Source: Ancylobacter defluvii
GTDB lineage: Bacteria; Pseudomonadota; Alphaproteobacteria; Rhizobiales; Xanthobacteraceae
Length of the DNA: 64,000 bases
Direction of reading: 5' to 3'
NCBI RefSeq assembly: GCF_018390605.1
Contig: NZ_JAHBGD010000026.1
Coordinates: 186,001-250,000, forward strand
Shown piece after piece: positions 23,074 to 40,397 of the stretch. The notes under the pieces are model-generated. The model saw only the letters and a program-made list of their open reading frames with translations, searched no databases and had not been told where the DNA came from. The position numbers were made by a program, and so were the translations under genes. How positions within the stretch are numbered: position 1 is the first letter of the stretch; the number at the start of each line of letters is the position of its first letter.

Positions 23074-23401
23074 CGTGCTCCACCCCGGCCCTGCTTCCCG
23101 ACACCGCACTTGGGCGGCCTCCCATCGGGGGCGCCATGTGATCATCAATGACCTTCGGGGCCAAGATGATAGGGCGGACGGACACGTCACCATACGGAAT
23201 CGTGAGGAACCTGTTACCGTTTCAGCACACTCTGGCGTGCGGCTCACCAGGCAGGCGCCACAGGCGCCAGGGCCGGATCCGGATGTTCCGGTGCGGGCGC
23301 ATCGCTGATAAGCAACGGGCGGCCATCGTCACCGACACCGATCGTCGCCGGATGCCGGCCGGACGTGCGGCAAGTCAGGCAACAGGTTGGGTCCAGCCCC
23401 G
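23074..23401. other. Divergent intergenic region, autotransporter / LysR
   Basis: 328 bases between two divergent start codons, so both promoters should be here. I see short palindromes (GGCGCC-ACA-GGCGCC near 23259 and CCGGATCCGG near 23273) and a moderately AT-richer patch around 23135-23220, but no convincing promoter or operator consensus. Confidence 0.5.
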
Positions 23402-24298
23402 ATGGATACACGGCATCTCGAAGCCTTCCGGGCCGTCTATGAGAACGGCTCGATGAGCGCGGCGGCGGCGGTGCTGCGCAAATCGCAGCCGGCCATCAGC
23501 AACCTCATCGCCCGGCTGGAGGACGAGATCGGCCTGAAGCTGTTCCACCGCGCCCATGGGCGGCTGGAGGCGACGCCCGAGGCCGAGACCTTGTTCGCCG
23601 CCATCGTGCGCACGCTGGACGCGATGGACCGCACCCTGGCGATCTCCCGCAATCTCAAGGGCCTGTCCTCGGCGACGCTGCTGATCGCCTCGCCGCCCGG
23701 CCTCGCCACCTATCTGCTGCCGCCGATCATCGCGGGCGTGCTCCGGGAGAACGCCGGCGCCACCGCGCGCTTCATCACCCGCTCCTCCTATGCGGTCCGC
23801 GACCTCGGCACCATCGGCGCCTTCGATGTCGGCTTCGCGGAGCTGCCGATCGACATCCATGTCGCCTCGCTCGAACTGTTCGAGGTCGGCTGCATGTGCG
23901 TGATGCGCGCCGATCACCCGCTGGCGCGCGAGACGGTCGTCGGGCCGGCCCAGCTGGATTCCATGCCCTTCGTCACCCTGTTTCCCGAGCACATCACCCA
24001 CATCGCCGCTGCCGAGGCGTTCTTCGAGGCGCATGCGCATTGGAACGTGGTGGCGGAGGTGGAGTTCTTCGGCACCGCCTGCGTGCTGGTGCAGCAGCTC
24101 GGCGCGGTGACGCTGGTCGACCCCGCCACCGCCCGCTTCTTCCAGGCGATGGGGCTGGTCGCGGTGCCGTTCCGCCCGGTACTACCCTACCGCTTCGGCA
24201 TGTTCCGCCCGAGCACCCGGCCGCCCTCGCGCATTTCGGTCGCCTTCATGGACCGTTTCCGCCGCGCCATCGCGCCGGATCTGCTCGCCCCGCGCTGA
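23402..24298 (+). CDS. LysR family transcriptional regulator
   Basis: A 298-residue LysR regulator. The helix-turn-helix is HLEAFRAVYENGSMSAAA and SQPAISNLIARLEDEIG; the effector domain starts near ATLLIASPPGLATYLLPP. The ATG at 23402 is chosen as the first codon before the conserved helix. It lies upstream of, and in the same direction as, the RidA/Liv cluster, with a 175-base gap holding a hairpin and a dyad, so it is the likely regulator of that cluster. The divergent autotransporter is an alternative target. Confidence 0.87.
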   Translation: MDTRHLEAFRAVYENGSMSAAAAVLRKSQPAISNLIARLEDEIGLKLFHRAHGRLEATPEAETLFAAIVRTLDAMDRTLAISRNLKGLSSATLLIASPPGLATYLLPPIIAGVLRENAGATARFITRSSYAVRDLGTIGAFDVGFAELPIDIHVASLELFEVGCMCVMRADHPLARETVVGPAQLDSMPFVTLFPEHITHIAAAEAFFEAHAHWNVVAEVEFFGTACVLVQQLGAVTLVDPATARFFQAMGLVAVPFRPVLPYRFGMFRPSTRPPSRISVAFMDRFRRAIAPDLLAPR

Positions 24299-24311
24299 AA
24301 CCCGGCCCAGT

Positions 24312-24352
24312 TGCGGCCGGCGGCGCCCAAAGTTGGGGCAGCCGGCCGCCCC
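24312..24352 (+). terminator. GC-rich inverted repeat after LysR gene
   Basis: GCGGCCGGC and GCCGGCCGC, about 23 bases apart, form a nine-base perfect stem shortly after the LysR stop. It may end LysR transcription before the catabolic operon begins. The end coordinates are approximate. Confidence 0.35.
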
Positions 24353-24406
24353 CGTTCCGGCAGGCGCCAGGCTATAACCTTGCCTTATGGACAATCGCTG
24401 ATTTTA

Positions 24407-24423
24407 CGTTTGACGACGCAACG
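24407..24423. promoter_or_regulatory. Candidate LysR box before the RidA/Liv operon
   Basis: CGTT-N9-AACG is a dyad 50 bases before the RidA gene start, in an AT-richer stretch (ATTTTACGTTTGACG). Position and shape would suit a LysR regulator site, but the arms are only four bases. Confidence 0.3.
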
Positions 24424-24473
24424 AAATCGAAGGGAGATCGAGGGCAAGGCACGGTGAGTGGAGAGGTGTACGG

Positions 24474-24968
24474 ATGGTCATGTCGGCAACGCAGCGCGTG
24501 GCGGAGCTCGGGCTCGCCATTCCGTCGGCCGGCGGCGGCGATAGCTATTACGGCACGCTCTACGGCAAGATGAAGCCGCATTATCTCAGCGACAAGCTGC
24601 TGTTCCTGTCCGGTCAGACCGCCGGCGTCGACGCGAGCGGCAAGGTGCGGTTCCCCGGCCGCCTCGGCCGCGACGTCACCGTCGAGGAGGGCTACGCGGC
24701 CGCCCGGCTCACCGGGCTCAACTGCCTCGGCTGCATCCTCGATGCGGTGGGCGACCTCGACCGCGTCAAGGGCCTGGTGCGCTCGCTCAATTTCATTGCC
24801 TGCGACCCGGCCTTCACCCAGCCGCATCTGGTGGCGAGCGGGCTGTCGGACCTGTTCGAAGAAGTGTTCGGCCCCGAGATCGGCGTCGGCGGCCGCGCCT
24901 CCATCGGCGTGATGTCGCTGGCCGACGATTATTGCTTCGAAACCTGGATGACGGTCGAGCTCCGCTGA
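24474..24968 (+). CDS. RidA family protein (YjgF/YER057c/UK114)
   Basis: A 164-residue chorismate-mutase-like fold protein of the RidA superfamily: KLLFLSGQTAGVD near residue 41, ARLTGLNCLGCILDAVGDL as the central helix, and the later DLFEEVFGPEIGVGGRASIGVMSL strand-turn. The conserved catalytic Arg of archetypal RidA is replaced in context (GGRASIGV), so it may belong to one of the Rid branches with other chemistry. RidA hydrolyses reactive enamines/imines made by PLP enzymes or oxidases; in catabolic operons such proteins often act as deaminases or aminoacrylate hydrolases. The ATG has GAGAGG seven bases upstream. It opens the Liv-linked cluster. Confidence 0.85.
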   Translation: MVMSATQRVAELGLAIPSAGGGDSYYGTLYGKMKPHYLSDKLLFLSGQTAGVDASGKVRFPGRLGRDVTVEEGYAAARLTGLNCLGCILDAVGDLDRVKGLVRSLNFIACDPAFTQPHLVASGLSDLFEEVFGPEIGVGGRASIGVMSLADDYCFETWMTVELR

Positions 24969-25051
24969 TCGCCCGCGCCCATCGAAACTTCGCCCATCAC
25001 AACAAGGCAGCGTGCGGCAAACGCACGATCTTCCCCCAGAGGAGAACTCGC

Positions 25052-26173
25052 ATGACGGTCAAACGCATCGCCGCTGCCCTCATCGGCATCGGCCTCCTGG
25101 CAACGCCCGGCCTCGCCCGGGCGGAAGACATCACCATCGGCTTCACCGCCGCTTTGTCCGGCGACTTCGCCGCCTTCGGCCTCAACATGCGCAAGGGTCT
25201 CGACTTGGCGGTGGCCGAGCTCAACAAGAAGGGCGGCGCCACCTACAAGATCGACGCGGTGGACGATCGCGGCGAGGCGCGCGAGGGCGTGCTGATCGCC
25301 CAGCGCTTCTGCTCCGACAAGAATGTCGACGTGGTGATGGGCTATTCCTTCTCCTCCATCGCGCTGGCGGCCATCCCGGTATTCACCGAGTGCAAGCTGC
25401 CGGTGCTCGCCTCGGCGGTCACCAGCCCGGCGCTGTCGAATGTCAGCCCGTATTTCCGCCGCAACGTGCTCACCGACGCGGTGCAGGGCGCGATGGCCGG
25501 CACCTACGCGGCCAAGACGCTGGGCCTCAAGTCGGTCTACGTGCTCAACCAGCAGGACGATTACGGCATCGGCGTCGCCAAGGCGTTCTCCGAGGCCGCC
25601 GAGAAGGCCGGGGCCAAGATCGCCGGCACCGAATCCTATCTGCTCGGCGCCAAGGACTTCCGCACCCTGCTGACCAAGGTGCGTTCCGCCCAGCCGGACG
25701 CGATCTTCATCGGTGGCTTCTACACCGAAGCGGCCAAGATCGCCGAGCAGGCCCGCGCGCTGGGCATCAAGGCGCAGCTGCTGTCGACCGACGGCGCGCT
25801 CAACGTCGATCTGATGAAGCTCGGCCGCGGCGCCGTCGAAGGCATGATCGTCTACGGCATGTTCGATCCGGCGGTCGCCACCCCGGCGACGGAAGCCTTC
25901 CTGTCGGCCTACAAGGCGACCTACAAGGAGGATCCGAGCGCCTGGGCGGCCCTGGGCTACGATGCCGGCATGGCGCTCGGCGCCGCCGTCGATCTCGCCG
26001 CCAAGGACGGCCCGGTCACCCGTGAAAGCCTCAACACCGCCTTCGGCAAGCTGAAGGACGTGCCCGGCGTCACCGGCCCGACCAGCTTCGACGCCAGCGG
26101 TGACCGCGCCGGCGCGCTGTATTTCCTCGCCGTGAAGGACGGCAAGTTCGGCCTGGCGCCCAAGCAGCCGTGA
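25052..26173 (+). CDS. Branched-chain amino acid-type ABC substrate-binding protein
   Basis: A 373-residue periplasmic binding protein (LivK/Leu-Ile-Val-BP family, Peripla_BP_6). Signal peptide VKRIAAALIGIGLLATPGLARA; the mature part starts EDITIGFTAALSGDFAAFG and has the family VVMGYSFSSIALA and AVTSPALS segments. It feeds the LivHM/LivG/LivF transporter encoded next. This family handles aliphatic amino acids but also aromatic acids, amides, urea and other compounds, so the ligand is open. The ATG is preceded by AGAGGAG. A 419-base gap with several palindromes follows before the permease gene. Confidence 0.92.
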   Translation: MTVKRIAAALIGIGLLATPGLARAEDITIGFTAALSGDFAAFGLNMRKGLDLAVAELNKKGGATYKIDAVDDRGEAREGVLIAQRFCSDKNVDVVMGYSFSSIALAAIPVFTECKLPVLASAVTSPALSNVSPYFRRNVLTDAVQGAMAGTYAAKTLGLKSVYVLNQQDDYGIGVAKAFSEAAEKAGAKIAGTESYLLGAKDFRTLLTKVRSAQPDAIFIGGFYTEAAKIAEQARALGIKAQLLSTDGALNVDLMKLGRGAVEGMIVYGMFDPAVATPATEAFLSAYKATYKEDPSAWAALGYDAGMALGAAVDLAAKDGPVTRESLNTAFGKLKDVPGVTGPTSFDASGDRAGALYFLAVKDGKFGLAPKQP

Positions 26174-26592
26174 GGCGGGGGCCGCCCGGTGGGCGGCGGC
26201 AGAGGGGAAAGGATCGGCGGCAGGCTGCCTCCGCCGTTGCCCTTCCCGACAACGGCGGTAGGAGGGGATGCTCCCTCTCCCCGTCGGAGAAAGGAAAGGA
26301 GCCGCCCGTCGGCGGTTCCACCATTGCCCGCCGGAGCCACGGCGGAGAGAAGCGAGCCTCCCTCTCCCCGTCGGGGAGAGGGGTGGGGTGAGGGGTCTTC
26401 GACGCTTCCCAATGGCGTCTCCCCTCACCGACCCGCTAACGCGGGCCACCTCTCCCCAACGGGGAGAGGGTAAGAAAGAAGAGGGCGTCCGCCCCGGCGG
26501 CACACGCCCTCCACCATCGACCGGCGCCGCGCCCGACGCGCGGCACCGAAGCACCTGACGGGCAAGGGCCCAGCCGGGCCACGCGAAGAGGC
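26174..26592. repeat. Intergenic palindromic repeat elements
   Basis: The 419 bases between LivK-like and LivHM genes hold related palindromes: CCCTCTCCCCG-TCGGGGAGAGGG at 26360-26383, CCTCTCCCC-AAC-GGGGAGAGG at 26449-26469, and a degenerate copy at 26273-26298. Between the first two, GGTGGGGTGAGGGG (26381-26395) faces CCCCTCACC (26421-26429), so the whole 26360-26469 segment can fold into one cruciform. This is the look of the dispersed intergenic repeats common in Hyphomicrobiales genomes. No gene is seen in the gap. Confidence 0.7.
26181..26197 (+). terminator. Hairpin directly after the binding-protein gene
   Basis: GCCGCCC-GGT-GGGCGGC is a seven-base perfect stem with a three-base loop, eight bases after the stop codon. 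Probably a transcript-stabilising or attenuating stem between the binding-protein and permease messages. Confidence 0.5.
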
Positions 26593-28620
26593 ATGATGGA
26601 CTATTTCGGACAGCTACTGGCGAACGGATTGGTGCTCGGGGCGATCTACGCCCTCACCGCGGTCGCGTTCACGCTGGTCTATGGCGTGGTGCGGCTGGTG
26701 AATTTCGCCTTTGGCGAGCTGTTCATGCTCGGCGCCTTCCTCACCACCTCGCTGATGCTGCCGGAGGTGCGGCTGTTCGGAACCGTCGTGCCGATGCCCG
26801 GCTTCCCGCTGCCCATCGCCGCGCTCGGCGCCATCGTCATCACCGGGGTGATCGGCGTGGTGGTGGACCGCATCGCCTACCGGCCGCTGCGCAACGCCCC
26901 GCGCCTCGCCCCGCTCATCACCTCGATCGCAGTCTCCGTGGTGCTGCAGAGCCTCGCCCAGACCGCCTGGGGCGCCGAGGAGCTGCGCTTTCCGCAATTC
27001 TACCTCGCCACCCTGCCGCCGGTGGTGCTGTTCGATTCCATCTATCTGTCGGTGATGGATCTGGTGGTGATGGCCACCGCCATCGTCGCCATGCTCGGCC
27101 TGTCGCTGTTCATCGCCCGCTCCTCGCTCGGGCGTGCCATGCGCGCCAGCGCCGAGGACCAGACCGCGGCGATGCTGGTCGGCATCCCGGTCAACCGGGT
27201 GGTAGCGGCGGCTTTCGCCATCGGCTCCGGCTTCGCCGCGCTCGCCGGGCTGCTCTATGCGCAGACCTATGGCTTCGCCCATTCCAGCATGGGCTTCCTG
27301 CCCGGATTGAAGGCGCTCACCGCCGCCGTGCTCGGCGGCATCGGCTCGATCCCCGGCGCGGCGCTGGGCGGCCTCATCCTCGGCCTGGTCGAGGCGCTGG
27401 GCGCCGGCTACCTGCCGAACGGCACCGCCTGGAAGGACGCGATCAGCTTCGTGCTGCTGGTCGGTCTGCTCTATCTGCGCCCGCAGGGCCTGCTGGGGCG
27501 GCCGGAGCTCAATTCCGCCGGACGCGGCAGCCTGCTCGGCGGCGCCTCGGAGGCCGGCGCCTTCTGGCTGCGCGCCGTCTTCGCCCGCGTCGATGCGCTG
27601 CTGGCCCGCTTCGCGGCCGCCGGCGCGCCGGCAGCGCTCGGCCTGCTCGCCATCGCCATCGTGGTCGGCACGCTGGTGCCGTCCGACTACTGGCTGCGCA
27701 TCCTCACCATGGTGGTGATCTACGGCATGCTGGCGAGCGGGCTGAACGTCATCGTCGGCTTCGCCGGGCTGCTCGATCTCGGCTTCGTCGCCTTCTGGGC
27801 GGTCGGCTCCTATCTCACCTCCATCCTGTTCGTGCTGGTGCTGAAGGAGAGCTACGGCGTCGCCCCGCAGGAGGTGTGGTGGCTGCTCTATCTCAACCTG
27901 CCGCTCGGCGGCCTGCTCGCCGCCGGCCTGGCGGTGCTGCTCGGCACCCCGACGCTCAGGCTGCGCGGCGACTACCTCGCCATCATGACGCTGGGCTTCG
28001 GCGAGATCGTCCGCGTCGTCGCCATCAACTGGATGGACCTGACCCGCGGGCCGATGGGCATTCGCGGCATTCCGGCGCCGAATCTGTTCGGCATCTCGCT
28101 CGGCTCGCCGCGGGCGCAGTTCTTCTTCGCGCTGGCGCTGGCGGCGGTAGTGGTGTTCGCCGTCGCCCGGCTGGTGCGCTCCTATGTCGGCCGCGCCTGG
28201 GTGGCGATCCGCGAGGACGAGGAGGCCGCCGAGGCGATGGGCGTGCCCACCGCCCGCTACAAGCTCTATGCCTATGCCGCGAGCGGCTTCGTCGGCGGCT
28301 TCGTCGGCGTGTTCTACGCCCATTCCCAGCAATATATCAGCCCGCTGAACTTCAGCCTGTTCGAGAACATCCTGCTGCTGATGCTGGTGGTGCTCGGCGG
28401 GCTCGGCACCTTTATCGGCCCGTTCGTCGGGGCGCTGATCTGGATCGTGTTCCTGCAGCTGGCGCTCGACCTGCCCTTCGTGCAGGCCTATCCGGAAACC
28501 CGCTTCGCCCTGCTCGGGGTGGTGCTCATCGTGCTGATGGTGTTCCGCCCGCAGGGCCTCGCCGCCAGCGCCCGCGTCGGCCTCACCATGCCCGGCGCGC
28601 GGGCGAAGGAGGCCGCATGA
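26593..28620 (+). CDS. Fused LivH-LivM ABC permease
   Basis: A 675-residue integral membrane protein joining two permeases that are usually separate. Residues 1 to about 300 are LivH-like (GLVLGAIYALTAVAFTLVYG at the start, ASAEDQTAAMLVGIPVNR, LGGIGSIPGAALGGL). After a linker (~305-340) residues to about 660 are LivM-like (GLNVIVGFAGLLDLGFVAF, MTLGFGEIVRVVAIN, FRPQGLAA). Each half should hold 8-9 membrane helices, and a single chain can form the whole translocation pore. The stop overlaps the LivG start (ATGA). Two ATGs lie in tandem at 26593 and 26596. Confidence 0.92.
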   Translation: MMDYFGQLLANGLVLGAIYALTAVAFTLVYGVVRLVNFAFGELFMLGAFLTTSLMLPEVRLFGTVVPMPGFPLPIAALGAIVITGVIGVVVDRIAYRPLRNAPRLAPLITSIAVSVVLQSLAQTAWGAEELRFPQFYLATLPPVVLFDSIYLSVMDLVVMATAIVAMLGLSLFIARSSLGRAMRASAEDQTAAMLVGIPVNRVVAAAFAIGSGFAALAGLLYAQTYGFAHSSMGFLPGLKALTAAVLGGIGSIPGAALGGLILGLVEALGAGYLPNGTAWKDAISFVLLVGLLYLRPQGLLGRPELNSAGRGSLLGGASEAGAFWLRAVFARVDALLARFAAAGAPAALGLLAIAIVVGTLVPSDYWLRILTMVVIYGMLASGLNVIVGFAGLLDLGFVAFWAVGSYLTSILFVLVLKESYGVAPQEVWWLLYLNLPLGGLLAAGLAVLLGTPTLRLRGDYLAIMTLGFGEIVRVVAINWMDLTRGPMGIRGIPAPNLFGISLGSPRAQFFFALALAAVVVFAVARLVRSYVGRAWVAIREDEEAAEAMGVPTARYKLYAYAASGFVGGFVGVFYAHSQQYISPLNFSLFENILLLMLVVLGGLGTFIGPFVGALIWIVFLQLALDLPFVQAYPETRFALLGVVLIVLMVFRPQGLAASARVGLTMPGARAKEAA

Positions 28621-29399
28621 CGGAGCTGAAAGGCGGCGCTCTGCTCGAAGCCCGGCAGGTAGTGGTCCGCTTCGGCGGGCTGGAAGCCGTCGGCGGGCTC
28701 GACATGGCGGTCGCGCGGGGAGCGATTCACGGCCTCATCGGGCCGAACGGCGCCGGCAAGACCACGGTGCTGAACGTGCTCACCGGCTTCATCCGCCCGA
28801 CCGCCGGCCGTCTCGTCTTCGATGGCGAGGAAATCGGCGGGCTGAACGTCAACGGCTTCGCCCGCCGCGGCCTTGCCCGCACCTTCCAGAACATCCGCTT
28901 GTTCGGTGCCATGACGGTTTTGGAGAGCGTGCTGGTGGGCGCGCATCAGCGCTTTTCCGCCTCGGCCCCGGCGCTGATCTTCGGTGGCCGCGCCGCCCGC
29001 ACCGCCGAGCGGGCGATGATCGCCCGTGCCCATGAGCTGCTCGACTTCGTCGGCTTGCGGCACGACATTGCCGACCGCGTCGCCACCACCCTCTCCTACG
29101 GCCACCAGCGCCGCGTCGAGATCGCCCGCGCGCTGATGTCCTCGCCCAAGCTGCTGCTGCTCGACGAGCCGCTCGCCGGCATGAACGCGGTGGAGAAGCA
29201 GGAAATCGCCGAGCTGGTCCGGCAGGTGCGGGCGCAGGGCATCGCCGTGCTGCTCATCGAGCACGACATGCAGATCGTCCGCAGCCTGTGCGACCATCTG
29301 ACCGTACTCGAATACGGCAAGCTACTGGCCGACGGCGCGCCGGAACGGGTTCTGTCCGATCCGGCCGTGCAGGCTGCCTATCTCGGCCGGGCGAGGTGA
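28617..29399 (+). CDS. livG: LivG-type ABC transporter ATP-binding protein
   Basis: A 260-residue ATPase: Walker A GPNGAGKTT, Q-loop in ARTFQNIRLFGAMTVLE, signature LSYGHQRRVEIARAL, Walker B LLLLDEPLAGMN and the H-loop in LLIEHDMQIV. The branched-chain-type signature LSYG and the length match LivG rather than LivF. The start codon overlaps the permease stop by four bases, which sets the start against a much longer open frame. It drives import through LivHM together with LivF. Confidence 0.93.
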   Translation: MTELKGGALLEARQVVVRFGGLEAVGGLDMAVARGAIHGLIGPNGAGKTTVLNVLTGFIRPTAGRLVFDGEEIGGLNVNGFARRGLARTFQNIRLFGAMTVLESVLVGAHQRFSASAPALIFGGRAARTAERAMIARAHELLDFVGLRHDIADRVATTLSYGHQRRVEIARALMSSPKLLLLDEPLAGMNAVEKQEIAELVRQVRAQGIAVLLIEHDMQIVRSLCDHLTVLEYGKLLADGAPERVLSDPAVQAAYLGRAR

Positions 29400-29404
29400 T
29401 CCCG

Positions 29405-30172
29405 ATGACGCATTCTGGCCCCATCATACACCCCACTGGCCTCATCGAACGGCCGGTCGAACCGCTGCTGAAGGTCTCCGGCCTGTCGGTCTCCTATGGC
29501 CGCATCCGCGCCGTCGACGCGGTCGACCTCGCCGTCGAGCCGGGCCGCATCGTATCGCTGGTCGGCTCCAACGGCGCCGGCAAGACCACGACGCTGATGG
29601 CGTTGTCGGGCCTGCTGCCGCTCGCCGCCGGCCGCATCGTGTTCGCCGGCGAGGACATCACCGGCCTGGCGCCGGAGCTGCGCGTGAGCCACGGCATCGC
29701 CCATGTCCCTGAAAGGCGTAGGGTTTTCGCCGGCATGAGCGTGCGGGAGAACCTGGCGCTCGGCGCCTATTCGCGCGGCGACGCCACCGAAATCGCCGGC
29801 GACATCGAGCGGTTGACCCAGTTGTTCCCCATTCTCGGCAAGCGGATGCACCAGGCGGCGGGCACCTTGTCCGGCGGCGAGCAGCAGATGCTCGCCATCG
29901 CCCGCGGGCTGATGTCCCGGCCGCAGCTGCTGATCATGGATGAGCCCACCATGGGCCTCGCCCCGCAGATGATCGACCTGATCCTCGACACCGTGCTGGA
30001 GATCCGCAAACTCGGCACCACCGTGTTGCTGGTCGAGCAAAACGCCATCGAGGCCATGCGCCTCTCCGATCACGTCTACATCATGCGCCTCGGCCGCATC
30101 GTCCACGAGGACAGCGGCGCCAACATCGATACCGAGCGCGTGAAGGCCTTCTACATGGGAGTCGATGCATGA
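29405..30172 (+). CDS. livF: LivF-type ABC transporter ATP-binding protein
   Basis: A 255-residue ATPase: Walker A GSNGAGKTTT, LivF-like VPERRRVFAGMSVRENL, signature LSGGEQQMLAIARGL, Walker B LLIMDEPTMGLAP and H-loop VLLVEQNAIEAM. The ATG lies five bases after the LivG stop. The N-terminus has about 20 residues before the first conserved strand (LLKVSGLSVSYGRI), slightly longer than usual. The stop overlaps the ureohydrolase start (ATGA at 30169), tying transport to the catabolic enzymes. Confidence 0.93.
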   Translation: MTHSGPIIHPTGLIERPVEPLLKVSGLSVSYGRIRAVDAVDLAVEPGRIVSLVGSNGAGKTTTLMALSGLLPLAAGRIVFAGEDITGLAPELRVSHGIAHVPERRRVFAGMSVRENLALGAYSRGDATEIAGDIERLTQLFPILGKRMHQAAGTLSGGEQQMLAIARGLMSRPQLLIMDEPTMGLAPQMIDLILDTVLEIRKLGTTVLLVEQNAIEAMRLSDHVYIMRLGRIVHEDSGANIDTERVKAFYMGVDA

Positions 30173-31122
30173 CGGAATTCTCTGGCGCATCAACGCCTAA
30201 GATGCGCCTGGGCACCTTTCTCGGCGTGCCGCAGGCAACGCAGGCCAGCGCCGGACAGATCGCGGTGATCGGCCTGCCGTTCGACTGCGGCACCCATGCC
30301 ACTCGCATCGGCTCGCGGCAGGGACCGGCGGCGTTCCGCGCCATGTCGAGCGAGGTCCGCCCCTATTACCCCCCCCTCGCCGATGTCGATCCGCGCGCCG
30401 GCGGCCGGGTTGTCGATCTCGGCGACGTCGACGTGATCGCCTCCGACATCGGCCCCTCGCTCGCGACCATGGAGGCGGCGATCCATGAGGTGGTGAAGGC
30501 CGATGCGGTACCGCTCTGCGTCGGCGGCGACGGCACCGTGACGCTGCCGGTGTTGCGCGCCCTCGCCCGCCGCTATCCCGAGCTGGTGCTCATCCACATC
30601 GACGCCCACACCGACGCCTATCCGGGCGACGACATCAACACCGGCACCACCTTCACCCGCGCCGCCATGGAGGGGCTGATCGACACCCGCCGCTCCTTCC
30701 ACATCGGCGCCCGCGGCACCATGCCGGTGCCCGGCGCCTATGATCATACGCGCGGGCTCGGCTTCCGGCTGATCACCGGCGAGGAGGTGCGCCGGCGTGG
30801 TGCTGTCGCCATCGCCGCCGAAGTGCGCGAGGTGGTCGGCACGCGCCCGGTGCACCTGTCCTTCGACATGGATTATTTCGACCCTTCGGCGGCACCCGGC
30901 GTCGCCACCCCCACCTGGGGCGGCCCGCCGGTGGCCGAAGTGTTCGACCTGCTGCACGGGCTCAAGGGGCTCGACCTCGTCGGGGTCGACATCAACACGC
31001 TGAGCCCGCCGCACGACGTCCAGGGCATGGCGGCCATGCTGGCCGGCCACGTCGCCGTCATCGCCCTTCATCTCGTCCAACTCGGCCAGGCGGAACACCG
31101 CCTGAACGCCGAGCCCCGCTGA
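30169..31122 (+). CDS. Ureohydrolase (agmatinase/arginase family), variant metal site
   Basis: A 317-residue ureohydrolase. This family releases urea from guanidino compounds (agmatine, arginine, guanidinobutyrate, guanidine) using two Mn or Ni ions. The DAHTD (residues 145-149) and SFDMDYFDP (D233, D235) ligand motifs are present, but the first motif, usually GGDHS, reads GGDGT (119-123), so the His ligand to metal A is replaced by Gly. Similar GGDGS-type members exist in the family as I recall it, so this may mark a subgroup rather than a dead enzyme. Translationally coupled to LivF, so the imported compound is probably its substrate or a precursor of it. Confidence 0.85.
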   Translation: MTEFSGASTPKMRLGTFLGVPQATQASAGQIAVIGLPFDCGTHATRIGSRQGPAAFRAMSSEVRPYYPPLADVDPRAGGRVVDLGDVDVIASDIGPSLATMEAAIHEVVKADAVPLCVGGDGTVTLPVLRALARRYPELVLIHIDAHTDAYPGDDINTGTTFTRAAMEGLIDTRRSFHIGARGTMPVPGAYDHTRGLGFRLITGEEVRRRGAVAIAAEVREVVGTRPVHLSFDMDYFDPSAAPGVATPTWGGPPVAEVFDLLHGLKGLDLVGVDINTLSPPHDVQGMAAMLAGHVAVIALHLVQLGQAEHRLNAEPR

Positions 31123-31138
31123 ACGGAGGCACCCGGTC

Positions 31139-32284
31139 ATGAACGTTGAGACCACTCTGGTTCCCGAGCCCTATGTCTGGACCGAGCCGCCGCTCGGCGA
31201 CGCCAAGAGCGCGCCGACGCGATTCTACACCGATCCCGCGGTGTTCAAGGCGGAGGTGGAGCATATCCACCTGAAGAACTGGTTCTTCGCGGGACGCGTC
31301 GAGGAGGTGCGAAATCCCGGCGACTACAAGGCGCTCGACAGCGTCGGCGGACCGGTGCTGCTGGTGCGCGGCGAGGACGGCGTGCTGCGCGCCTTCGCCA
31401 ATGTGTGCCGGCATCGTGCCTCGATCCTGCTTGAGGGATGCGGACACGCCAGCAACATCATCTGCCCCTACCACGCCTGGAACTACCGGCTCGACGGCAC
31501 GCTGGCCGGTGCGCCGGGCATGCGCGAGGTGCCGAAATTCGAGAAGCCGCCGCACGGGCTGATCCCGATCCGGCTGGAGGTCTGGGAGGGCTCGATCTTC
31601 CTCAATTACGACGACCACGCACCCGACCTGATGACCCATCTCGGCAACATGCCGGAACTGATCGGCAGCCATCGGCTGGGCGAGATGGTGAAGACCTGGC
31701 ACATCGAGATCGAGACGAAGTGCAACTGGAAGCTGCTGCTCGAAAACGCCATGGAGACCTACCACACCGGCATCGTCCATGCCGCCACCGTCGGCGCGCA
31801 GCGCTCGGTGAGCTTTCCGACGCAGGGCGAGTGGCACGTCATCCAGGTGCAGTCGAACCGCTCCATCGCGGTGCTCGGCCAGGAGCCGCCGTTTCCGGTG
31901 ATCGAGGGCCTTTCGGAGCAGTCGCGCAAGGGCACCTACTTCACCGTCATCGAGCCGACCATCCAGTTCGCCTGCGCGCAGGACTGCATGTGGTGGCTGG
32001 CGGTGCGCCCGATCGCGGTGGACCGCTCGGTGCTCTCGGTCGGCGGCTGCTTCCCCAAGGCCTATACCGAATTGCCGGACTTCGAGGAGCGCGCCGCGCC
32101 CTACTACAAGCGCTGGGAAGCGGTGGCGCTGGAGGATGTCGGCATCCTCGAAAAGCAGCAGATCGGCCTCTCCTCCATCCTCGCGCGGCCCGGCCCGCTC
32201 TCCTGGCGCGACGACATGGTGCTGGCGATGAACCGCTGGGTGATGGCGCAACTGCCGGCCCATATCGTTGATGGAATGGCCTGA
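31139..32284 (+). CDS. Rieske non-heme iron oxygenase, catalytic subunit
   Basis: A 381-residue aromatic-ring-hydroxylating-type oxygenase alpha subunit. The Rieske [2Fe-2S] ligands are C90 and H92 (VCRHRAS) and C109 and H112 (CPYHAW). The mononuclear iron site shows NWKLLLENAMETYHTGIVH, giving the two His, and EDVGILEKQQ, giving the Asp. The layout and the CPYHAWNYRLDGTLAGAP segment resemble the branch that acts on quaternary amines and small carboxylates (glycine-betaine or carnitine-type) as much as true ring dioxygenases. No reductase or ferredoxin gene is in the window. ATG 16 bases after the ureohydrolase stop, with CGGAGG upstream. Confidence 0.88.
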   Translation: MNVETTLVPEPYVWTEPPLGDAKSAPTRFYTDPAVFKAEVEHIHLKNWFFAGRVEEVRNPGDYKALDSVGGPVLLVRGEDGVLRAFANVCRHRASILLEGCGHASNIICPYHAWNYRLDGTLAGAPGMREVPKFEKPPHGLIPIRLEVWEGSIFLNYDDHAPDLMTHLGNMPELIGSHRLGEMVKTWHIEIETKCNWKLLLENAMETYHTGIVHAATVGAQRSVSFPTQGEWHVIQVQSNRSIAVLGQEPPFPVIEGLSEQSRKGTYFTVIEPTIQFACAQDCMWWLAVRPIAVDRSVLSVGGCFPKAYTELPDFEERAAPYYKRWEAVALEDVGILEKQQIGLSSILARPGPLSWRDDMVLAMNRWVMAQLPAHIVDGMA

Positions 32285-32285
32285 C

Positions 32286-33275
32286 ATGCGTGTATTGCTG
32301 ACCCATAACCGCGACCTACTCACGCATTTCTACGGCTTGCGCGCCGTGGAGGCGCTGAAGGCGCTCCCCATCGAGCTGGTGATGAACGACAGCGACACGC
32401 CGCTGTCCGGCGATGCGCTGGTGACGGCGGCGGAGGGCTGCCAGGTGGTGATTTCCGACCGTCTCGCCGCCGGCCCGCGCGAGGTGATGCAAAAGCTGGG
32501 CGATGTGAGGCTGTTCACCCGCTGCGCGGTCGACATGCGCAACATCGATGTCGCCGCCGCGTCCGACGCCGGCATCCTGATCTGCAACTGCTCCTCCGGC
32601 TATAATGACGCGGTGGCCGAACACGCACTCGCGCTGATGCTCGATCTCGCCCGCAACATCACCCGCGACGCCGGGCGCTATCATGCGGGCGATGCCGGCC
32701 ACCCGATGGTGTTCGGCCGGCAGATGGCCGGTGCCCATGTGGGAGTGATCGGCTACGGGTCGATCGGCCGCCGCATCGTCGAGCTGGCGCTGGCCTTCAA
32801 GATGAAGGTGTCGGTCCACGATCCCTATGCCTGGATGGACAATGGCGCGGTGAACGCGGTCGGTCTCGACGAGGTGCTGTCGCAGCCGGATTTCGTCGTC
32901 TGCGCCGCCTATGCGACGCCCGAGACCGAACGCATGATGAACGCCTCGGCCTTCGCGAAGATGCGTAGCGATGCCTTTTTCATCAACATCTCGCGCGGCA
33001 TCCTCGTCGACGAGGATGCGCTCGAGGCCGCGCTCACCTCCGGTGCCATTGCCGGCGCCGGGCTCGACGTCGGTGATGGACCCGACCAGCAGCCCTCGCT
33101 GCGGCTTGCCCGCCTGCCGAACGTTGTCGCCACGCCGCACTCGGCGGCGTTGATGATCGAACCGTCCGAGTTTCAGGCGATGGAAACCGTCGAGCAGGTC
33201 AAGGCGGTGCTGGCGGGACGGCTGCCGATCCATGCCAGGAACCCCGACCGCGTGCCCGGCTGGCTGACGCGATGA
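32286..33275 (+). CDS. D-isomer-specific 2-hydroxyacid dehydrogenase family protein
   Basis: A 329-residue NAD(P)-linked dehydrogenase: nucleotide-binding loop GVIGYGSIGRRIVELA, catalytic Arg in NISRGILVDEDALE and catalytic His in ATPHSAALM. The catalytic Glu, normally in a DVFEQEP-like motif, is not at its usual place (GLDVGDGPDQQPSL), so an Asp may substitute or the enzyme belongs to a variant group. The likely role is reduction of a 2-keto acid or oxidation of a 2-hydroxy acid. It begins just after the oxygenase stop and overlaps the following amidohydrolase start (ATGA at 33272). Confidence 0.87.
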   Translation: MRVLLTHNRDLLTHFYGLRAVEALKALPIELVMNDSDTPLSGDALVTAAEGCQVVISDRLAAGPREVMQKLGDVRLFTRCAVDMRNIDVAAASDAGILICNCSSGYNDAVAEHALALMLDLARNITRDAGRYHAGDAGHPMVFGRQMAGAHVGVIGYGSIGRRIVELALAFKMKVSVHDPYAWMDNGAVNAVGLDEVLSQPDFVVCAAYATPETERMMNASAFAKMRSDAFFINISRGILVDEDALEAALTSGAIAGAGLDVGDGPDQQPSLRLARLPNVVATPHSAALMIEPSEFQAMETVEQVKAVLAGRLPIHARNPDRVPGWLTR

Positions 33276-34147
33276 ACGCACTCTTACCCGCGAATGCGCC
33301 GTCGTTTCGTCCGCCGGCAGGCGCCTGCGATTGCCACATGCACATTTACGGTCCGGCGGACACCTATCCGCCGGCGCCGGACTCGCCGTTCCCGCCGGTC
33401 GCCGGCGGCGACATCGCCGCCTATCTCGAGGCGAGGGAAGTGCTCGGCCTTACCCGCGCGGTGGTGGTGCAGCCTTCCGTATACGGCTTCGACAATCGGG
33501 CGACGCTGGATGCCATGGCGGTACTCGGCGCGGATGCGCGGGGAGTTGCCGTCGTCCCACCGGATGTCAGCGACGCGGAACTCGATCGGCTGACCCGGCT
33601 CGGTATACGTGGCATACGCTTCTTCATGATCGGCGGCGGCCTGCTCGGCTGGGACGATCTGGAGACGCTCGCGGCAAAGACCGCCGCCTTCGGCTGGCAT
33701 GTGCAGATGCAGATGGACGGGCGACGGCTGGATGAGGTCGAGGAACGTCTGGCCCGGCTTCCGGGCGGGGTGGTCATCGACCACAACGGCAAATTCCTGG
33801 AGCCGGTCAGTCTCGACCATCCCGGCTTCGCCGCGCTGCGCCGCCTGCTCGACAACGGTCGCACCTGGGTGAAAACGTCCGGCGTGTACGAGACGTCGCG
33901 TATTGGTGCACCAGACTACCCGGACGTTGCCACGCTTGCCCGCGCGCTGATCGCCCACGCTCCCGAGCGCTGCCTGTTCGCAACCAACTGGCCGCACCCG
34001 TCGAAACCGGGCAATCCGCCGGACGATGCCGGGCTCGTCGACCTGTTCCGCGACTGCTGCGGCAGCGACGAGGTCGCCGGTCGGATCATGGTCGACAATG
34101 CGGCGGAACTGTACGAATTTCCGTCCCTCACCGGAACAGGGCACTAG
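33272..34147 (+). CDS. TIM-barrel amidohydrolase (amidohydrolase 2 / PDC-lactonase-like)
   Basis: A 291-residue amidohydrolase-2 protein. The N-terminal metal motif is CDCHMHIYG, the strand-end residues include VVVQPSVYG and VVIDHNGKF, and the end has FATNWPHPSKPG with the conserved NWPHP. This pattern is that of 2-pyrone-4,6-dicarboxylate lactonase-like hydrolases, which open lactones or cleave C-C bonds in aromatic-acid breakdown. The start overlaps the preceding gene by four bases, and the next gene follows at once, so it is within the operon. Substrate inferred only broadly. Confidence 0.85.
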   Translation: MNALLPANAPSFRPPAGACDCHMHIYGPADTYPPAPDSPFPPVAGGDIAAYLEAREVLGLTRAVVVQPSVYGFDNRATLDAMAVLGADARGVAVVPPDVSDAELDRLTRLGIRGIRFFMIGGGLLGWDDLETLAAKTAAFGWHVQMQMDGRRLDEVEERLARLPGGVVIDHNGKFLEPVSLDHPGFAALRRLLDNGRTWVKTSGVYETSRIGAPDYPDVATLARALIAHAPERCLFATNWPHPSKPGNPPDDAGLVDLFRDCCGSDEVAGRIMVDNAAELYEFPSLTGTGH

Positions 34148-34151
34148 CCAC

Positions 34152-35753
34152 GTGATCTCGACCCGCCGCGCCGACTTCTTCGGCCCCTCGCGCCCGACCG
34201 TCTTTGCCCGCGACGCCGCCATCGCCACCTCGCACCCGCTGGCCACCGCGGCGGGACTGGAGATTCTCCAGGCGGGCGGAAACGCGATGGACGCGGCGCT
34301 GGCCGCGGTAGCGACGCAGTGCGTGGTCGAGCCGGCAATGACCGGCATCGGCGGCGACTGCTTCGTGCTCTATGCGCCGCAGGGCAAGCCGACGGTGGCG
34401 ATCAACGGCAGCGGCCGCGCGCCGGCGGCGGCAAGCGTGGAGGCCCTGAAGGCCGCCGGCCTGACGGACGAGATCCCGCGCACCAGCGCTCATGCCGTCA
34501 CCATTCCCGGCGCCGTCTCCGCCTGGACGCGGCTGCATGCCGACCATGGCAGCCTGCCGCTCGACCGGCTCTTCATGCGGGCCATCGACTATGCCGAGAA
34601 CGGCTACCCGATCGCCCAGCGCGTCGCCTTCGACTGGGCGGACGAGGCGCCGCTCTTGGCGCAGGACGAGAATGCCAGCGCCTTCTTCCTCTCCGGCGGC
34701 GCCCCGCTCCGGGCGGGCCAGCGCCACGCCCAGCCGCTCCTCGGCCAGCGCCTGCGCGAGATCGCGAACCAGGGCGCCGCCGCCTTCTACGAGGGCGCGA
34801 CCGCCGCCTCGCTGGTGCGCTATCTCAACGGCCTCGGTGGCCTGCATACGCTGGACGACTTCGCGGCGATGAAGGACGGCGCCTTCTACACCACCCCCAT
34901 CGCCACCGATTACCGTGGCTGTACCATTGAGGAGTGCCCGCCCAACGGTCAGGGCGTCGCGGCGCTGATGCTGCTCAATATTCTGCGCGAGTTCGATCTT
35001 GGCGACGGACTGTCGCTGGTCGACCGCGTTCATCTTCACGCCGAGGCGACCAAGCTCGTCTACCACAATCGCGATGCGCTGCTGGGCGACCCGTCAGCGA
35101 TGACCGTGCCGGTCGAGACGCTGCTGGCGCCGGAAACCGCCCGGCGCCTTGCCGCGCGCATCGACATGAGCCGCGCACTGCCGCCGGTGCTGTGGGACGA
35201 GCCGGCGCACGCGGACACCGTCTATCTTTGCGTCGTCGACCGCGACGGCAACATGGTGTCTTTCATCAATTCGATCTTTCACGCCTTCGGCTCGACGCGG
35301 ATCGACCCGGCGACCGGCGTGCTGCTGCATTCGCGCGGCAGCTCCTTCCGCCTCATCGAGGGGCATCCCAACGCCATCGCCCCCGGCAAGCGGCCGATGC
35401 ACACCATCATCCCCGGCCTGCTGCGTCGCGATGGCGAGGCCATCGGCGTGTTCGGCGTCATGGGCGGGCATTATCAGGCGGCCGGTCAGGCGGCGCTGCT
35501 CTCCGGCCTGCTTGACCGTGGTCTCGATCCGCAGACCGCCATCGACGCACCGCGTTCCTTCGCCTTCGATGGCGTGCTGGAAATCGAGCCGACCTATCCC
35601 GAGGAGGTCCTGGCGGATCTCGCGGAACGCGGGCATCGGCTGAAGGTCGCCGTCGAACCGATCGGCGGCGCCCAGCTGATCGTCCGGGAACAGGGTGGAC
35701 TGCTGCTCGCCGCCTCCGATCCCCGCAAGGATGGCTGCGCGCTGGGCGTCTGA
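34152..35753 (+). CDS. Gamma-glutamyltransferase-family Ntn hydrolase, no signal peptide
   Basis: A 533-residue GGT-family protein. N-terminal AIATSHPLATAAGLEILQAGG and GIGGDCFVLY are family hallmarks, and the C-terminal small-subunit part has the self-cleavage nucleophile Thr in HADTVYLCVVDRDGNMVS and GVMGGHYQAAGQ. Unlike the usual periplasmic GGT, it has no signal peptide: conserved sequence begins within 15 residues. Cytoplasmic members are known as amidases in nitrogen catabolism (for example oxamate amidohydrolase HpxW), so an amide hydrolase role is likely. The GTG start directly follows the upstream stop; the ORF extension upstream overlaps that gene. Last gene of the cluster. Confidence 0.85.
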   Translation: MISTRRADFFGPSRPTVFARDAAIATSHPLATAAGLEILQAGGNAMDAALAAVATQCVVEPAMTGIGGDCFVLYAPQGKPTVAINGSGRAPAAASVEALKAAGLTDEIPRTSAHAVTIPGAVSAWTRLHADHGSLPLDRLFMRAIDYAENGYPIAQRVAFDWADEAPLLAQDENASAFFLSGGAPLRAGQRHAQPLLGQRLREIANQGAAAFYEGATAASLVRYLNGLGGLHTLDDFAAMKDGAFYTTPIATDYRGCTIEECPPNGQGVAALMLLNILREFDLGDGLSLVDRVHLHAEATKLVYHNRDALLGDPSAMTVPVETLLAPETARRLAARIDMSRALPPVLWDEPAHADTVYLCVVDRDGNMVSFINSIFHAFGSTRIDPATGVLLHSRGSSFRLIEGHPNAIAPGKRPMHTIIPGLLRRDGEAIGVFGVMGGHYQAAGQAALLSGLLDRGLDPQTAIDAPRSFAFDGVLEIEPTYPEEVLADLAERGHRLKVAVEPIGGAQLIVREQGGLLLAASDPRKDGCALGV

Positions 35754-35823: not shown

Positions 35824-37428
35824 TCAGTCGCGCAGGCTGCGATACGCCGCCTGCAAGGCTTCGAACCCCTTGAAGCGCCGCTGGTGCCAGGCTCGGGTGG
35901 CGGCGTTCGGCGGATAGACGACCTCGATCTCCGACATCGACGACATCGCCTTGCCGAAGTCGTCATAGCCCCCCGCGGCCACCGCCCCGAGTATGGCGGC
36001 GCCCAGCAGCACCGGCTCGGGCGAGCTGGTCGCGGCGATGTTCACGTCGGCCGCATCCGCCAGCACCTGCCGCACCAGTGCGCTCTGGCCGGCGCCGCCC
36101 GAAACCACCACGGTATCGGTCCGCGCGCCCTTCGCCGCCTGGGCGTCGAGGATCTGTCTCAGGCCGTAGCCGATGCCGGCAAGGCCGGCCATGTACAGCC
36201 CGACGAGGCTGTCGAGGTCTTCGTCCATGCCCAGCCCGACAACGATGCCGCGCGCCAGATGATCGGCGAAGGGGGCGCGATTTCCCAGAAATTCCGGCAC
36301 CACGTAAAGCGTGCCGGCGAGTTCCGCGATCGCCGCCGCTCCTCCTGCCGCCTCGGCCCGGTGCGCCAGCCACACGCTTAGATTCTGGCCGTCGGCCTTG
36401 GCAAGTTCCAGGGCCTGCGGCGCCGCCGGATGCAGGCGGACCAGACGGTCAATGGCGGCGCCGGCCGCCGACTGGCCACCCTCGTTCAGCCAGAAGCCCG
36501 GCACCATGGCGGAGAAATACGGGCCCCATACACCCGGCACGAATGCAGGCTCGGTGGTGGTGAGCAAGGTGCAGGCCGAGGTGCCGAACACATAGGCCAT
36601 GCGGTTCAGCGCACTGCCACTGCCGCCGCGCGCGCCGACGGTGCCGATGCCGCCCGCATGCGCATCGATTAGGCCCGCCGCGACGGCGATCCCCGGCGCG
36701 AGCCCGAATTGCTCTGCTGCCTGCGCGGTGAGGCCTTGCCCAAGCGGCGTGCCGGCGGCAACGATTTCCGTGCCGATCCGCGCGAAGCCTTCGTCGGCCA
36801 ACGCGCCGAGGCCTATGCTCCGGAAATAGCCCTCGTCCCAGCGCTGCTCATGGGCGAGATAGGTCCATTTGCAGGTGACGGTGCAAACCGAGCGGGCAAG
36901 GCTGCCGGTCGCCTTCCAGGTGAGGAAGTCGGCGAGATCGAGAAACTGCCAGGCACCGGCGAAGGTCTCCGGCAACTCCTCGCTCAACCACAGCAGCTTC
37001 GGCGTCTCCATCTCCGGCGAGATGATGCCGCCGACATAATCGAGCACCCGGCTGCCGAGCGCGTTGATGCGGTCGGTCTGCCCGGTGGCACGATGATCCA
37101 TCCAGACGATGACGTTGCGTGCCGGATCACCGTGGCGGCCGACCGGGAGCGGGTGCCCCTCCGCGCCCAGCACCACCAGCGAGCAGGTGGCGTCAAAGCC
37201 GATGCCCTTGACGTCCGCCGCCGTTGTCCCGGCACGGGAGATGGCCTCCCGCACGCTGGCGCAGACGCAGGCCCAGATGTCGTCGCTGGATTGCTCGACG
37301 ACATCGCCATGTTCCTTCCAGATGCGAATGTCCCGCTTGGCGACGGCCAGCTGCCGGCCGTTGCTGTCGAAGATGCCGGCGCGCACGCTGCCGGTGCCGA
37401 CATCGATCCCAGCGAAACATCCGCTCAT
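35824..37428 (-). CDS. FGGY-family carbohydrate kinase (ribulokinase-like)
   Basis: A 534-residue FGGY kinase. The N-terminal ATP-grasping motif is AGIDVGTGSVRAGIFD, the sugar-contact part has WMDHRA and FLDLADFLTWKATGS, and the C-terminal domain has VVVSGGAGQSALVRQVLAD. Length and the GFDATCSLVVL segment match the pentulose kinase branch (D-ribulose kinase-like) rather than xylulokinase. It phosphorylates a keto-sugar made by the dehydrogenases encoded just upstream. The ATG lies two bases after the SDR stop. Last gene of the ten-gene polyol operon. Confidence 0.9.
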   Translation of the reverse strand: MSGCFAGIDVGTGSVRAGIFDSNGRQLAVAKRDIRIWKEHGDVVEQSSDDIWACVCASVREAISRAGTTAADVKGIGFDATCSLVVLGAEGHPLPVGRHGDPARNVIVWMDHRATGQTDRINALGSRVLDYVGGIISPEMETPKLLWLSEELPETFAGAWQFLDLADFLTWKATGSLARSVCTVTCKWTYLAHEQRWDEGYFRSIGLGALADEGFARIGTEIVAAGTPLGQGLTAQAAEQFGLAPGIAVAAGLIDAHAGGIGTVGARGGSGSALNRMAYVFGTSACTLLTTTEPAFVPGVWGPYFSAMVPGFWLNEGGQSAAGAAIDRLVRLHPAAPQALELAKADGQNLSVWLAHRAEAAGGAAAIAELAGTLYVVPEFLGNRAPFADHLARGIVVGLGMDEDLDSLVGLYMAGLAGIGYGLRQILDAQAAKGARTDTVVVSGGAGQSALVRQVLADAADVNIAATSSPEPVLLGAAILGAVAAGGYDDFGKAMSSMSEIEVVYPPNAATRAWHQRRFKGFEALQAAYRSLRD

Positions 37429-37430
37429 GC

Positions 37431-38159
37431 TCAAAGGTCCGTTCCGTTTGGCAGGATCACCAGGTCACGAACTGTGACGTTGCGCGGACGGGTCAGCATG
37501 AAGATGACGCAGTCCGCCACCTCCTTTGCCTCCATGAGGGCGCCGGAGGCAAGCGCCTCGTCGAGCTTGGCCTGCGGCCAGTCCTTGATGAGGGCGGTGA
37601 CCACCGGTCCCGGAAGCACGGCGCCGACACGGATGCCGTGCTTGGCTACCTGCCGGCGCGTCGTGTGGACGAAGGCCTGCACCGCGAATTTCGACGCCGT
37701 GTAGATCGGTTCCCACACCACCGGCACCACGCCGGCAATGGAGGAGGTGAAGATCACGTCGCCGGTCTGGCGCTCGACCATATGCGGCAGCACCGCCTGC
37801 ACGGTGCGGAAAGCGGCATTGACGTTGAGGTTCAGCACCCGGTCCCACACGTCCGGGTCGCCCTCCACCACGTCGCCGCCAATATAGGCGCCGGCATTGG
37901 CGTGGAAGATGTCGAGCGAACCGCAGGTGTCGAGGATCTGCGGCAGCATGGTGGCGACGCTCGCCGTATCGAGCAGGTCGACCACCACCGGCACGGCTTT
38001 CGGGCCGAGTTCGGCACAGATGGAATCCAGCGCGTCGGCGGCGCGATCGACCAGCGCCACCGTCGCGCCCTCATCAAGCATTGCCCGCGCGCATTCGAGG
38101 CCGATGCCCGACGCCGCGCCGGTGATGGCGGCGACCTTGCCCTGAAGCCTGCTTGCCAT
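37431..38159 (-). CDS. SDR family oxidoreductase of the polyol operon
   Basis: A 242-residue classical [26 protein letters not shown], Ser in FTSSIAGVV and Tyr-x3-Lys in [11 protein letters not shown]. The context (Zn-dependent polyol dehydrogenase upstream, FGGY kinase downstream with a two-base gap) suggests a second oxidation or an epimerising oxidation/reduction of a polyol or keto-sugar. A GC-rich hairpin separates it from the upstream dehydrogenase gene. Substrate not deducible. Confidence 0.9.
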
Positions 38160-38191
38160 TTCAGTCCTCGATCTTTTCAGGAACGGAAGAA

Positions 38192-38216
38192 GCCCGGCCG
38201 CACGCGGCGGCCGGGC
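38192..38216 (-). terminator. Intercistronic hairpin inside the polyol operon
   Basis: GCCCGGCCG and CGGCCGGGC form a nine-base perfect stem with a seven-base loop. In the transcribed (minus) direction TTCTTCC follows, so partial termination is plausible between the Zn-dehydrogenase and SDR genes. Confidence 0.5.
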
Positions 38217-38237
38217 CGAGTGAAGATCGCCGGCCTC

Positions 38238-39278: not shown

Positions 39279-39314
39279 GGGCTTTTCCTGCTGGGGTTGC
39301 CGTCGTCGGCGCGC

Positions 39315-40397
<1,083 letters not shown>

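Follow-up and report, generated by a model that had tools for sequence, protein, structure and literature searches.

What compound could be taken up and broken down by a bacterial gene cluster that places a Liv-type importer beside an arginase-fold protein, a Rieske oxygenase and a RidA/YjgF-like protein? The question is raised by positions 23402-35753 of a 64,000-nucleotide stretch of the Ancylobacter defluvii genome (the window, on contig C19 of a 5.28-Mb genome in 29 contigs), where open reading frame (ORF) lists, translations and family scans reveal a LysR gene followed by ten plus-strand genes. An earlier note on this DNA had counted nine genes after the LysR gene, a number corrected here to ten, with LivH and LivM forming one ORF of 675 amino acids (aa). 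All of the genes that it named are present on the plus strand within these positions, and their families were borne out by Pfam, NCBIfam and PDB relatives.

The reading favoured here, by a modest balance of the evidence, is that these genes make up an operon devoted to the catabolism of an imported organonitrogen compound, in which the arginase-fold enzyme would have been remodelled for a C-N bond other than that of a guanidine. It builds, at the level of sequence, on the gene set, its conservation as a unit, the intact redox motifs of the Rieske oxygenase and the remodelled site of the arginase-fold protein. The operon is composed of ordinary families, one of them represented by an unusual and apparently undescribed subfamily. 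The interpretation offered in the earlier note is partly supported: a conserved, importer-linked cluster is borne out, and the removal of urea from a guanidino compound is not.

Conservation of the gene set

Genome contigs were scanned with alignment A1 (29 PF00491 proteins), and the best 80 of 272 relatives, selected by two peptide patterns, were kept as loci on which the window's proteins were then mapped. A lack of co-occurrence in other genomes had been set beforehand as a refuting condition, and it did not refute the cluster: the gene set is present in 20 of the 80 loci (L007-L025 and L053, with at least 57% identity in the PF00491 protein), in two gene orders and several families, and is missing from the remaining 60. 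All nine genes from RidA to Amidohydro_2 occur in 18 of these 20 cluster loci, the exceptions being L023, whose 3.6-kb contig stops short of the Rieske gene, and the locus of Acetobacter garciniae (L020), which yielded no RidA match. The window shows gene order A, as do L007-L021, where a LysR gene stands in front, in the same place and on the same strand, in 15 of 15 loci; in gene order B (L022-L025 and L053), the RidA and Rieske genes follow the Amidohydro_2 gene and no LysR gene is close. The GGT gene is found in 13 of the 20 cluster loci, two contigs (L017 and L023) ending before its position, and is considered accessory because it is absent from five of the 18 judgeable loci (L019, L020, L021, L022 and L024) although their sequence continues.

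According to titles and taxonomy, the cluster loci fall into Xanthobacteraceae, Acetobacteraceae, Rhodospirillaceae, Paracoccaceae, Aestuariispiraceae, Nitrobacteraceae and Rhizobiaceae, and include several metagenome-assembled genomes (MAGs); the Nitrobacteraceae and Rhizobiaceae labels sit on near-alike sequences, so that one of the two may be wrong. The nearest named relatives of the window's PF00491 protein belong to Ancylobacter, Xanthobacteraceae. In a tree of 86 arginase-fold rows (81 of the subfamily described below and five paralogs), the 21 cluster rows, window included, make up one side of a branch with a Shimodaira-Hasegawa-like approximate likelihood ratio test (SH-aLRT) value of 99, and the cluster trait takes one change against a shuffled mean of 19.0; the tree was built by a quick method and has long branches elsewhere, which leaves its deep joins unsure.

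An independent sample of 297 genomes of the order gave matches to the Rieske protein at E <= 1e-90 in 12 genomes and to the PF00491 protein at E <= 1e-70 in 14, with identities of at least 83% and at least 87%, respectively, in the same three genomes only (G000, G077 and G045, the window's own genome among them). In these three, the close Rieske and arginase-fold genes adjoin and neighbouring cluster genes are present. The PF04909 protein was matched at E <= 1e-70 in 20 of the 297 genomes, with at least 77% identity in the same three and in G004, where the 2-hydroxyacid dehydrogenase accompanies it and the Liv system nearby is a different one. The sample also holds nine genomes from other genera of the same family (eight g2, one g3), and these gave no Rieske, PF04909 or PF00491 match; with close matches in three genomes and none in these relatives, the distribution of the cluster is patchy.

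Altogether, a conserved, importer-linked gene cluster, beyond chance co-occurrence, is confirmed. The view that this set belongs to no named pathway also held up, in that full-text literature searches, with most subscription papers lying outside their scope, brought up no paper describing either the gene set or the motif among the matches listed; GGDG, for instance, occurs in none of 25 papers listed out of 275. Two cluster loci show variations of their own: in A. garciniae (L020:5195-8476), the Liv binding protein and both permease domains are fused in one ORF of 1093 aa, and in L025 about 1.3 kb separates the end of a PF01979 amidohydrolase gene (2564-3943; by eye resembling a hydantoinase gene) from the order-B binding protein gene downstream of it.

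The arginase-fold subfamily and its Rieske partner

The arginase fold is indicated by a PF00491 match of 225.5 bits against a cut-off of 22. In alignment with 3nip, 3nio and 7lol, the GGDH motif has become GGDG and the DxVEVSP-type motif DxNTxSP. Of the 81 proteins compared (the window's own and those of the 80 loci), all 81 have Gly122 in place of the Mn_A His (E. coli His126), the catalytic His (E. coli His163; position 158, Thr in the window) is kept in 0 of 81, and the guanidinium-binding Glu (E. coli Glu274) has given way to Thr277 in 80 and to Ala in one. The other five metal ligands (D145, H147, D149, D233 and D235) are kept in all 81, Asn276 is likewise invariant (81/81), and His282 is found in 75 of the 81 subfamily rows. 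The window's genome encodes five further PF00491 proteins, all of which keep His, His and Glu at the three replaced positions. Two adjoining arginase-family genes of this genome, at G000:C5:129010-130790, are both canonical at these residues.

The subfamily also stands apart in its scores. When the A1 profile was run against the 297 genomes (up to seven candidates scored in each), 95 genomes had a match at E <= 1e-60, and the matches form two groups: 16 in 15 genomes at 359 bits or more, and the rest from 272 bits downwards. Thirty loci were fetched overall; the 15 read above this gap (of 16, the window's own included) all carry GGDG and NT, and the 15 read below it all carry GGDH and VE. In a pattern-free set of 15 matches (own included) from the order-wide PF00491 search, G122, N276, T277 and H282 each occur in 15 of 15, and the pattern of metal ligands is that of the 81 rows. 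The invariance of Cys40 in the first set was not used: one of the selecting peptide patterns contains this residue, and with Cys in only 8 of the 15 pattern-free matches, the invariance is partly a selection effect. Judged by these residues and scores, this is a discrete arginase-fold subfamily with a remodelled active site. Its nearest outgroup, just below the gap (L173-L176), has Ala at the catalytic His and keeps GGDH and Glu, which suggests a possible intermediate form and an order in which the residues were lost. The source names, where given, assign these proteins to the agmatinase or arginase family; the window's protein scores below the NCBIfam agmatinase cut-offs (138.5 vs 174.3 bits and 221 vs 302 bits), and the name agmatinase is probably wrong for the subfamily.

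The consequences of these replacements can be gauged from E. coli agmatinase, in which, as passages of PMC8125230 describe, His126 binds the weaker Mn and Glu274 binds guanidine, and the mutants H163F and E274A have 3-5% and 1-2% activity. With the parts for attack on guanidine lost, the arginase-fold enzyme probably carries out chemistry not yet described. The loss of three catalytic residues would also suit a catalytically dead protein, serving as a binder or as a partner like MetCb of metformin hydrolase, and arginase-family partner proteins are indeed known (PMC11271267, in part). Such a role is unlikely, since MetCb has lost five of its six metal ligands (same source), whereas the GGDG/NT subfamily has lost one and retains the other five invariantly; furthermore, none of the genome's five other PF00491 matches shares a contig with the cluster, so that no paired active subunit is encoded alongside.

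Release of urea from a guanidino compound, as the earlier note had proposed, would have to proceed through an unusual active site. PF00491 membership, guanidinopropionase and guanidinobutyrase as the nearest PDB chains, the five kept metal ligands and the activity of MetCa with Asn in place of the usual catalytic His (PMC11271267, in part) all speak for it. The proposal was nevertheless set aside because three catalytic residues are gone (Mn_A His, catalytic His and guanidinium Glu), the latter two being replaced throughout the sampled subfamily at positions where the E. coli mutants are severely impaired (PMC8125230), and the unreached agmatinase cut-offs add to making it improbable.

For the Rieske oxygenase, the nearest solved chains are CntA, 3n0q and Stc2, the last of which is taken here to be 3vca. 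All 21 cluster rows retain the Rieske ligands, the His-His-Asp iron site and the bridging Glu. CntA Tyr203 corresponds to Ala204 in all 25 A2 rows and all 21 cluster rows, and Stc2 has Asn at this position, so that Tyr is not general; CntA Cys206 is replaced by Thr, Ser or Ala and Cys209 by Thr in 25 of 25 A2 rows, with Thr207 and Thr210 at the positions of the Cys pair in every cluster row. The subgroup motif ENAMETYHTG occurs in 19 of the 20 cluster loci (the L023 contig ends first) and is shared by four kin outside the cluster (L136, L138, L139 and L141). In CntA, Tyr203 binds ammonium and the Cys206/Cys209 pair lies next to the iron (PMC7948474, PMC10952381, both in part); such a CxxC pair has been described in part of group V and is not general to it.

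A substrate of the quaternary ammonium type (carnitine or betaine-like), which the Rieske enzyme would demethylate or split at the C-N bond, draws on CntA as the nearest solved structure, on the kept bridging Glu and, among the four kin surroundings read, on an MTTB gene about 5.6 kb away in L136 and a DAO-GCV_T gene about 3.7 kb away in L138. It is weakened by the missing ammonium-binding Tyr and Cys pair and by a score well below the NCBIfam GbcA cut-off (142 vs 670 bits), so that this substrate class has little probability and the quaternary-amine demethylation raised in the earlier note is unsure.

The partnership of the two enzymes extends further. The neighbours of the 60 non-cluster loci were clustered for shared substrate, with an ORF picker that is crude in GC-rich DNA, so that the resulting clusters serve as leads only. 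Rieske relatives were found in 7 of the 60: in five loci of one clade (L030, L031, L032, L035 and L042), a relative of 38-39% identity with the motif ENALETYHTG (one residue unread in L035) adjoins the GGDG gene, and those in L028 and L044 do not match the motif. Because the genes adjoin in these five loci, the Rieske-arginase-fold partnership is wider than the present operon. In one of these MAGs (L032:2170-8256), genes for a 2OG-Fe(II) oxygenase, an amidase and a methyltransferase surround the pair, and parts of this neighbour set recur in the other four (L030, L031, L035 and L042, also MAGs).

Elsewhere among the non-cluster loci, importers differ by Pfam (for example SBP_bac_3 in L061, SBP_bac_8 in L027 and DctP in L033), as do neighbours such as an M20 peptidase in L061 and a TPP enzyme in L027, and for this reason no single substrate class follows. 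An M20 peptidase-like gene adjoins the GGDG gene in L061 (7263-10936), L064, L067 and L075 (by Pfam in L061, by similarity in the rest); L061 and L075 also carry an amino-acid-type ABC importer, and L075 has a GGT-like gene nearby. More broadly, and short of even odds, the subfamily may represent an arginase-fold lineage, associated with varied importers and oxidases in Proteobacteria, that was reshaped to act on a C-N bond other than that of a guanidine, perhaps by means of a single metal, and that defines a new pathway together with a new Rieske subgroup. The histone-deacetylase-like relatives of the arginase fold provide a one-metal parallel.

Accompanying proteins and the proposed pathway

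The remaining proteins supply uptake and further candidate steps. The Liv/HAAT importer is complete at the level of Pfam and NCBIfam families (binding protein, two permeases, two ATPases), and the best PDB relatives of its binding protein are branched-chain amino acid-type binding proteins, which give no ligand hint beyond that type. In the RidA-like protein, the Arg of GxRxxIG is kept in 21 of 21 rows and may correspond to the imine-deaminase Arg of RidA. The Rossmann motif, Arg and His of the dehydrogenase are conserved in all 25 rows, but the Glu region has the form DVGxxxDQQP or a similar one, which leaves the acid residue uncertain.

In the Amidohydro_2 protein, HxH is kept in 25 of 25 rows (L144-L147 included), and the xNWPH motif carries Asn in the same 25; LigI-type lactonases have a catalytic Asp in their xDWPH motif, and the lactone opening put forward in the earlier note is unsure. 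Both PDB chains aligned also have Asn, one of them presumably as an engineered mutant. The protein is nearest to 4mup and 2-pyrone-4,6-dicarboxylate hydrolase, and it matches the 4-sulfomuconolactone hydrolase model at 142 bits against a cut-off of 500. The dehydrogenase and Amidohydro_2 genes constitute a module of their own, since they are paired without arginase-fold and Rieske genes in L144-L146 (pair identities of 52-53% and 46% in L145 and L146; L146 has a 28% GGT match about 6 kb away). Downstream of the pair in L144 (7909-13674) come two further Amidohydro_2 genes, a gene for a Rieske ferredoxin and another Liv system.

A lactone route for an aromatic-derived or sugar-acid compound, in which RidA would deaminate an enamine by analogy with aminomuconate pathways, would make use of these Amidohydro_2 resemblances, and it is very improbable given that no ring-cleavage family was found among the cluster proteins by Pfam and NCBIfam, that the 4-sulfomuconolactone hydrolase score is so far from its cut-off and that the Rieske protein is nearer to the CntA/Stc2 group than to ring dioxygenases.

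The GGT-like protein reaches 343.8 bits with TIGR00066, under the cut-off of 357.85; in alignment, its Thr357 (counted from 34149, the start used in the searches) falls on residue 1 of several GGT small chains, where GGT and Ntn amidases have their Thr nucleophile, and its DTVY motif is present in 15 of 15 rows. With the gene missing from some cluster loci, the amide-splitting step that had been assigned to it is unsure.

For a dedicated organonitrogen operon, the following scheme may be envisaged, the order of its steps being a guess. The Liv system would take up the compound; the Rieske oxygenase, served by a reductase encoded elsewhere, would oxidise a carbon next to nitrogen, and RidA would hydrolyse the resulting imine. 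The arginase-fold protein, which retains an intact Mn_B-type site and has lost the guanidinium pocket, would not act on a guanidine but hydrolyse an uncharged C-N bond such as that of an amide or ureido group. For the carbon skeleton, the hydroxyacid dehydrogenase and the Amidohydro_2 protein may form a module acting on a 2-keto/2-hydroxy acid and a lactone-like intermediate, and the GGT-like amidase could provide an optional entry step, splitting an amide, in some strains.

Several points weigh against this scheme. The presence of a GGDG arginase-fold gene without the cluster in 60 of the 80 loci means that the function of the subfamily is not tied to these partners alone. One Mn is the minimum need of E. 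coli agmatinase (PMC8125230, in part), so that loss of the Mn_A His by itself does not forbid guanidine hydrolysis and the non-guanidine case rests on the three losses together; the active MetCa of metformin hydrolase, moreover, is also without the usual catalytic His (PMC11271267, in part). The structure model, with a mean pLDDT of 82.4 and values below 50 at 41-48 and 239-250, does not allow the content of the vacated site to be assigned. Finally, no reductase family was detected among the ten Pfam-scanned cluster proteins, and a search of the genome that covered PF00970, and no other reductase family, gave matches only on contigs C4, C17 and C21 and none on C19; electrons for the Rieske enzyme therefore probably come from a protein encoded elsewhere.

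The operon offers a direct route to the function of the subfamily, as the binding protein of its importer can be screened for a ligand. A rebuilt arginase site would illustrate how this fold acquires new substrates, and its Rieske partner represents a subgroup that lacks two marks of CntA.

Gene layout and comparison with known systems

Family assignments (Table 1) rest on Pfam for ten proteins and NCBIfam for nine, together with PDB relatives; the GGT-like protein was assigned by NCBIfam and PDB. The tight joins described in the earlier note hold for seven of the ten junctions, from LivHM to GGT, where genes overlap by 4 bases or are separated by at most 16; they do not extend to the first three, with gaps of 181 bases between LysR and RidA, 83 between RidA and the binding protein, and 419 between the binding protein and LivHM.

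Table 1. Features of the cluster at window positions 23402-35753.
Feature	Position	Strand	Basis or remark
LysR-type regulator	23402..24298	+	PF00126 and PF03466
RidA/YjgF-like protein	24480..24968	+	PF14588
Liv-type periplasmic binding protein	25052..26173	+	PF13458, 202.7 bits
419-base gap with 3 copies of a 22-nt palindromic repeat	26174..26592	n/a	
Fused LivH-LivM permease, 675 aa	26593..28620	+	PF02653, two stretches in one ORF
LivG ATPase	28617..29399	+	Pfam and NCBIfam
LivF ATPase	29405..30172	+	Pfam and NCBIfam; ATG at 29405, searched from 29399 in frame
Arginase-fold protein, GGDG/NT subfamily	30169..31122	+	PF00491; Gly122, Thr158 and Thr277 replacements
Rieske oxygenase alpha subunit, ENAMETYHTG subgroup	31139..32284	+	PF00355, PF00848; alignment to CntA and Stc2
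D-2-hydroxyacid dehydrogenase-like protein	32286..33275	+	PF02826, PF00389; motifs
Amidohydro_2 protein, TNWPH motif	33272..34147	+	PF04909; nearest PDB chain 4mup
GGT-fold N-terminal-nucleophile amidase, accessory	34152..35753	+	TIGR00066; GTG start at 34152

A single further plus-strand copy of the core of the palindromic repeat, CTCTCCCC, lies at position 13775 of the window. Upstream of the cluster lies a minus-strand ORF of 2215 aa (16600-23247) with no Pfam match at 1e-5. Downstream, window positions 35824-54000 form a minus-strand region with an FGGY kinase and a sugar-type binding protein (both by Pfam), in which a short-chain dehydrogenase, another dehydrogenase and further sugar-type ABC genes were recognised by eye.

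Among known systems, the Rut pyrimidine pathway likewise joins an oxygenase, a hydrolase and a RidA protein in one operon, and the present cluster differs from it in having no luciferase-like or isochorismatase-like family among its Pfam-scanned proteins. With galactarolactone isomerase, LigI and 4-sulfomuconolactone hydrolase (PF04909), the Amidohydro_2 protein shares the fold and HxH, and its TNWPH motif is as in 4mup; 4mup has Gln for the first His of HxH, which the cluster protein keeps, and the 4-sulfomuconolactone hydrolase cut-off is not reached. The Rieske protein has its metal ligands and bridging Glu in common with CntA, Stc2 and GbcA (group V) and departs from them in its lack of CntA's Cys pair and ammonium Tyr and in having no reductase gene seen alongside.

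The arginase-fold protein shares its fold and five of six metal ligands with agmatinase, guanidinobutyrase and guanidinopropionase, differing in the three lost residues and in a PFDCGTH loop that is one residue longer than in the aligned relatives. Metformin hydrolase (MetCa/MetCb) offers a further parallel, as an arginase-family system with changed catalytic residues in a catabolic setting (PMC11271267, in part); of the six metal ligands, MetCa keeps all, MetCb loses five, and the cluster protein loses one.

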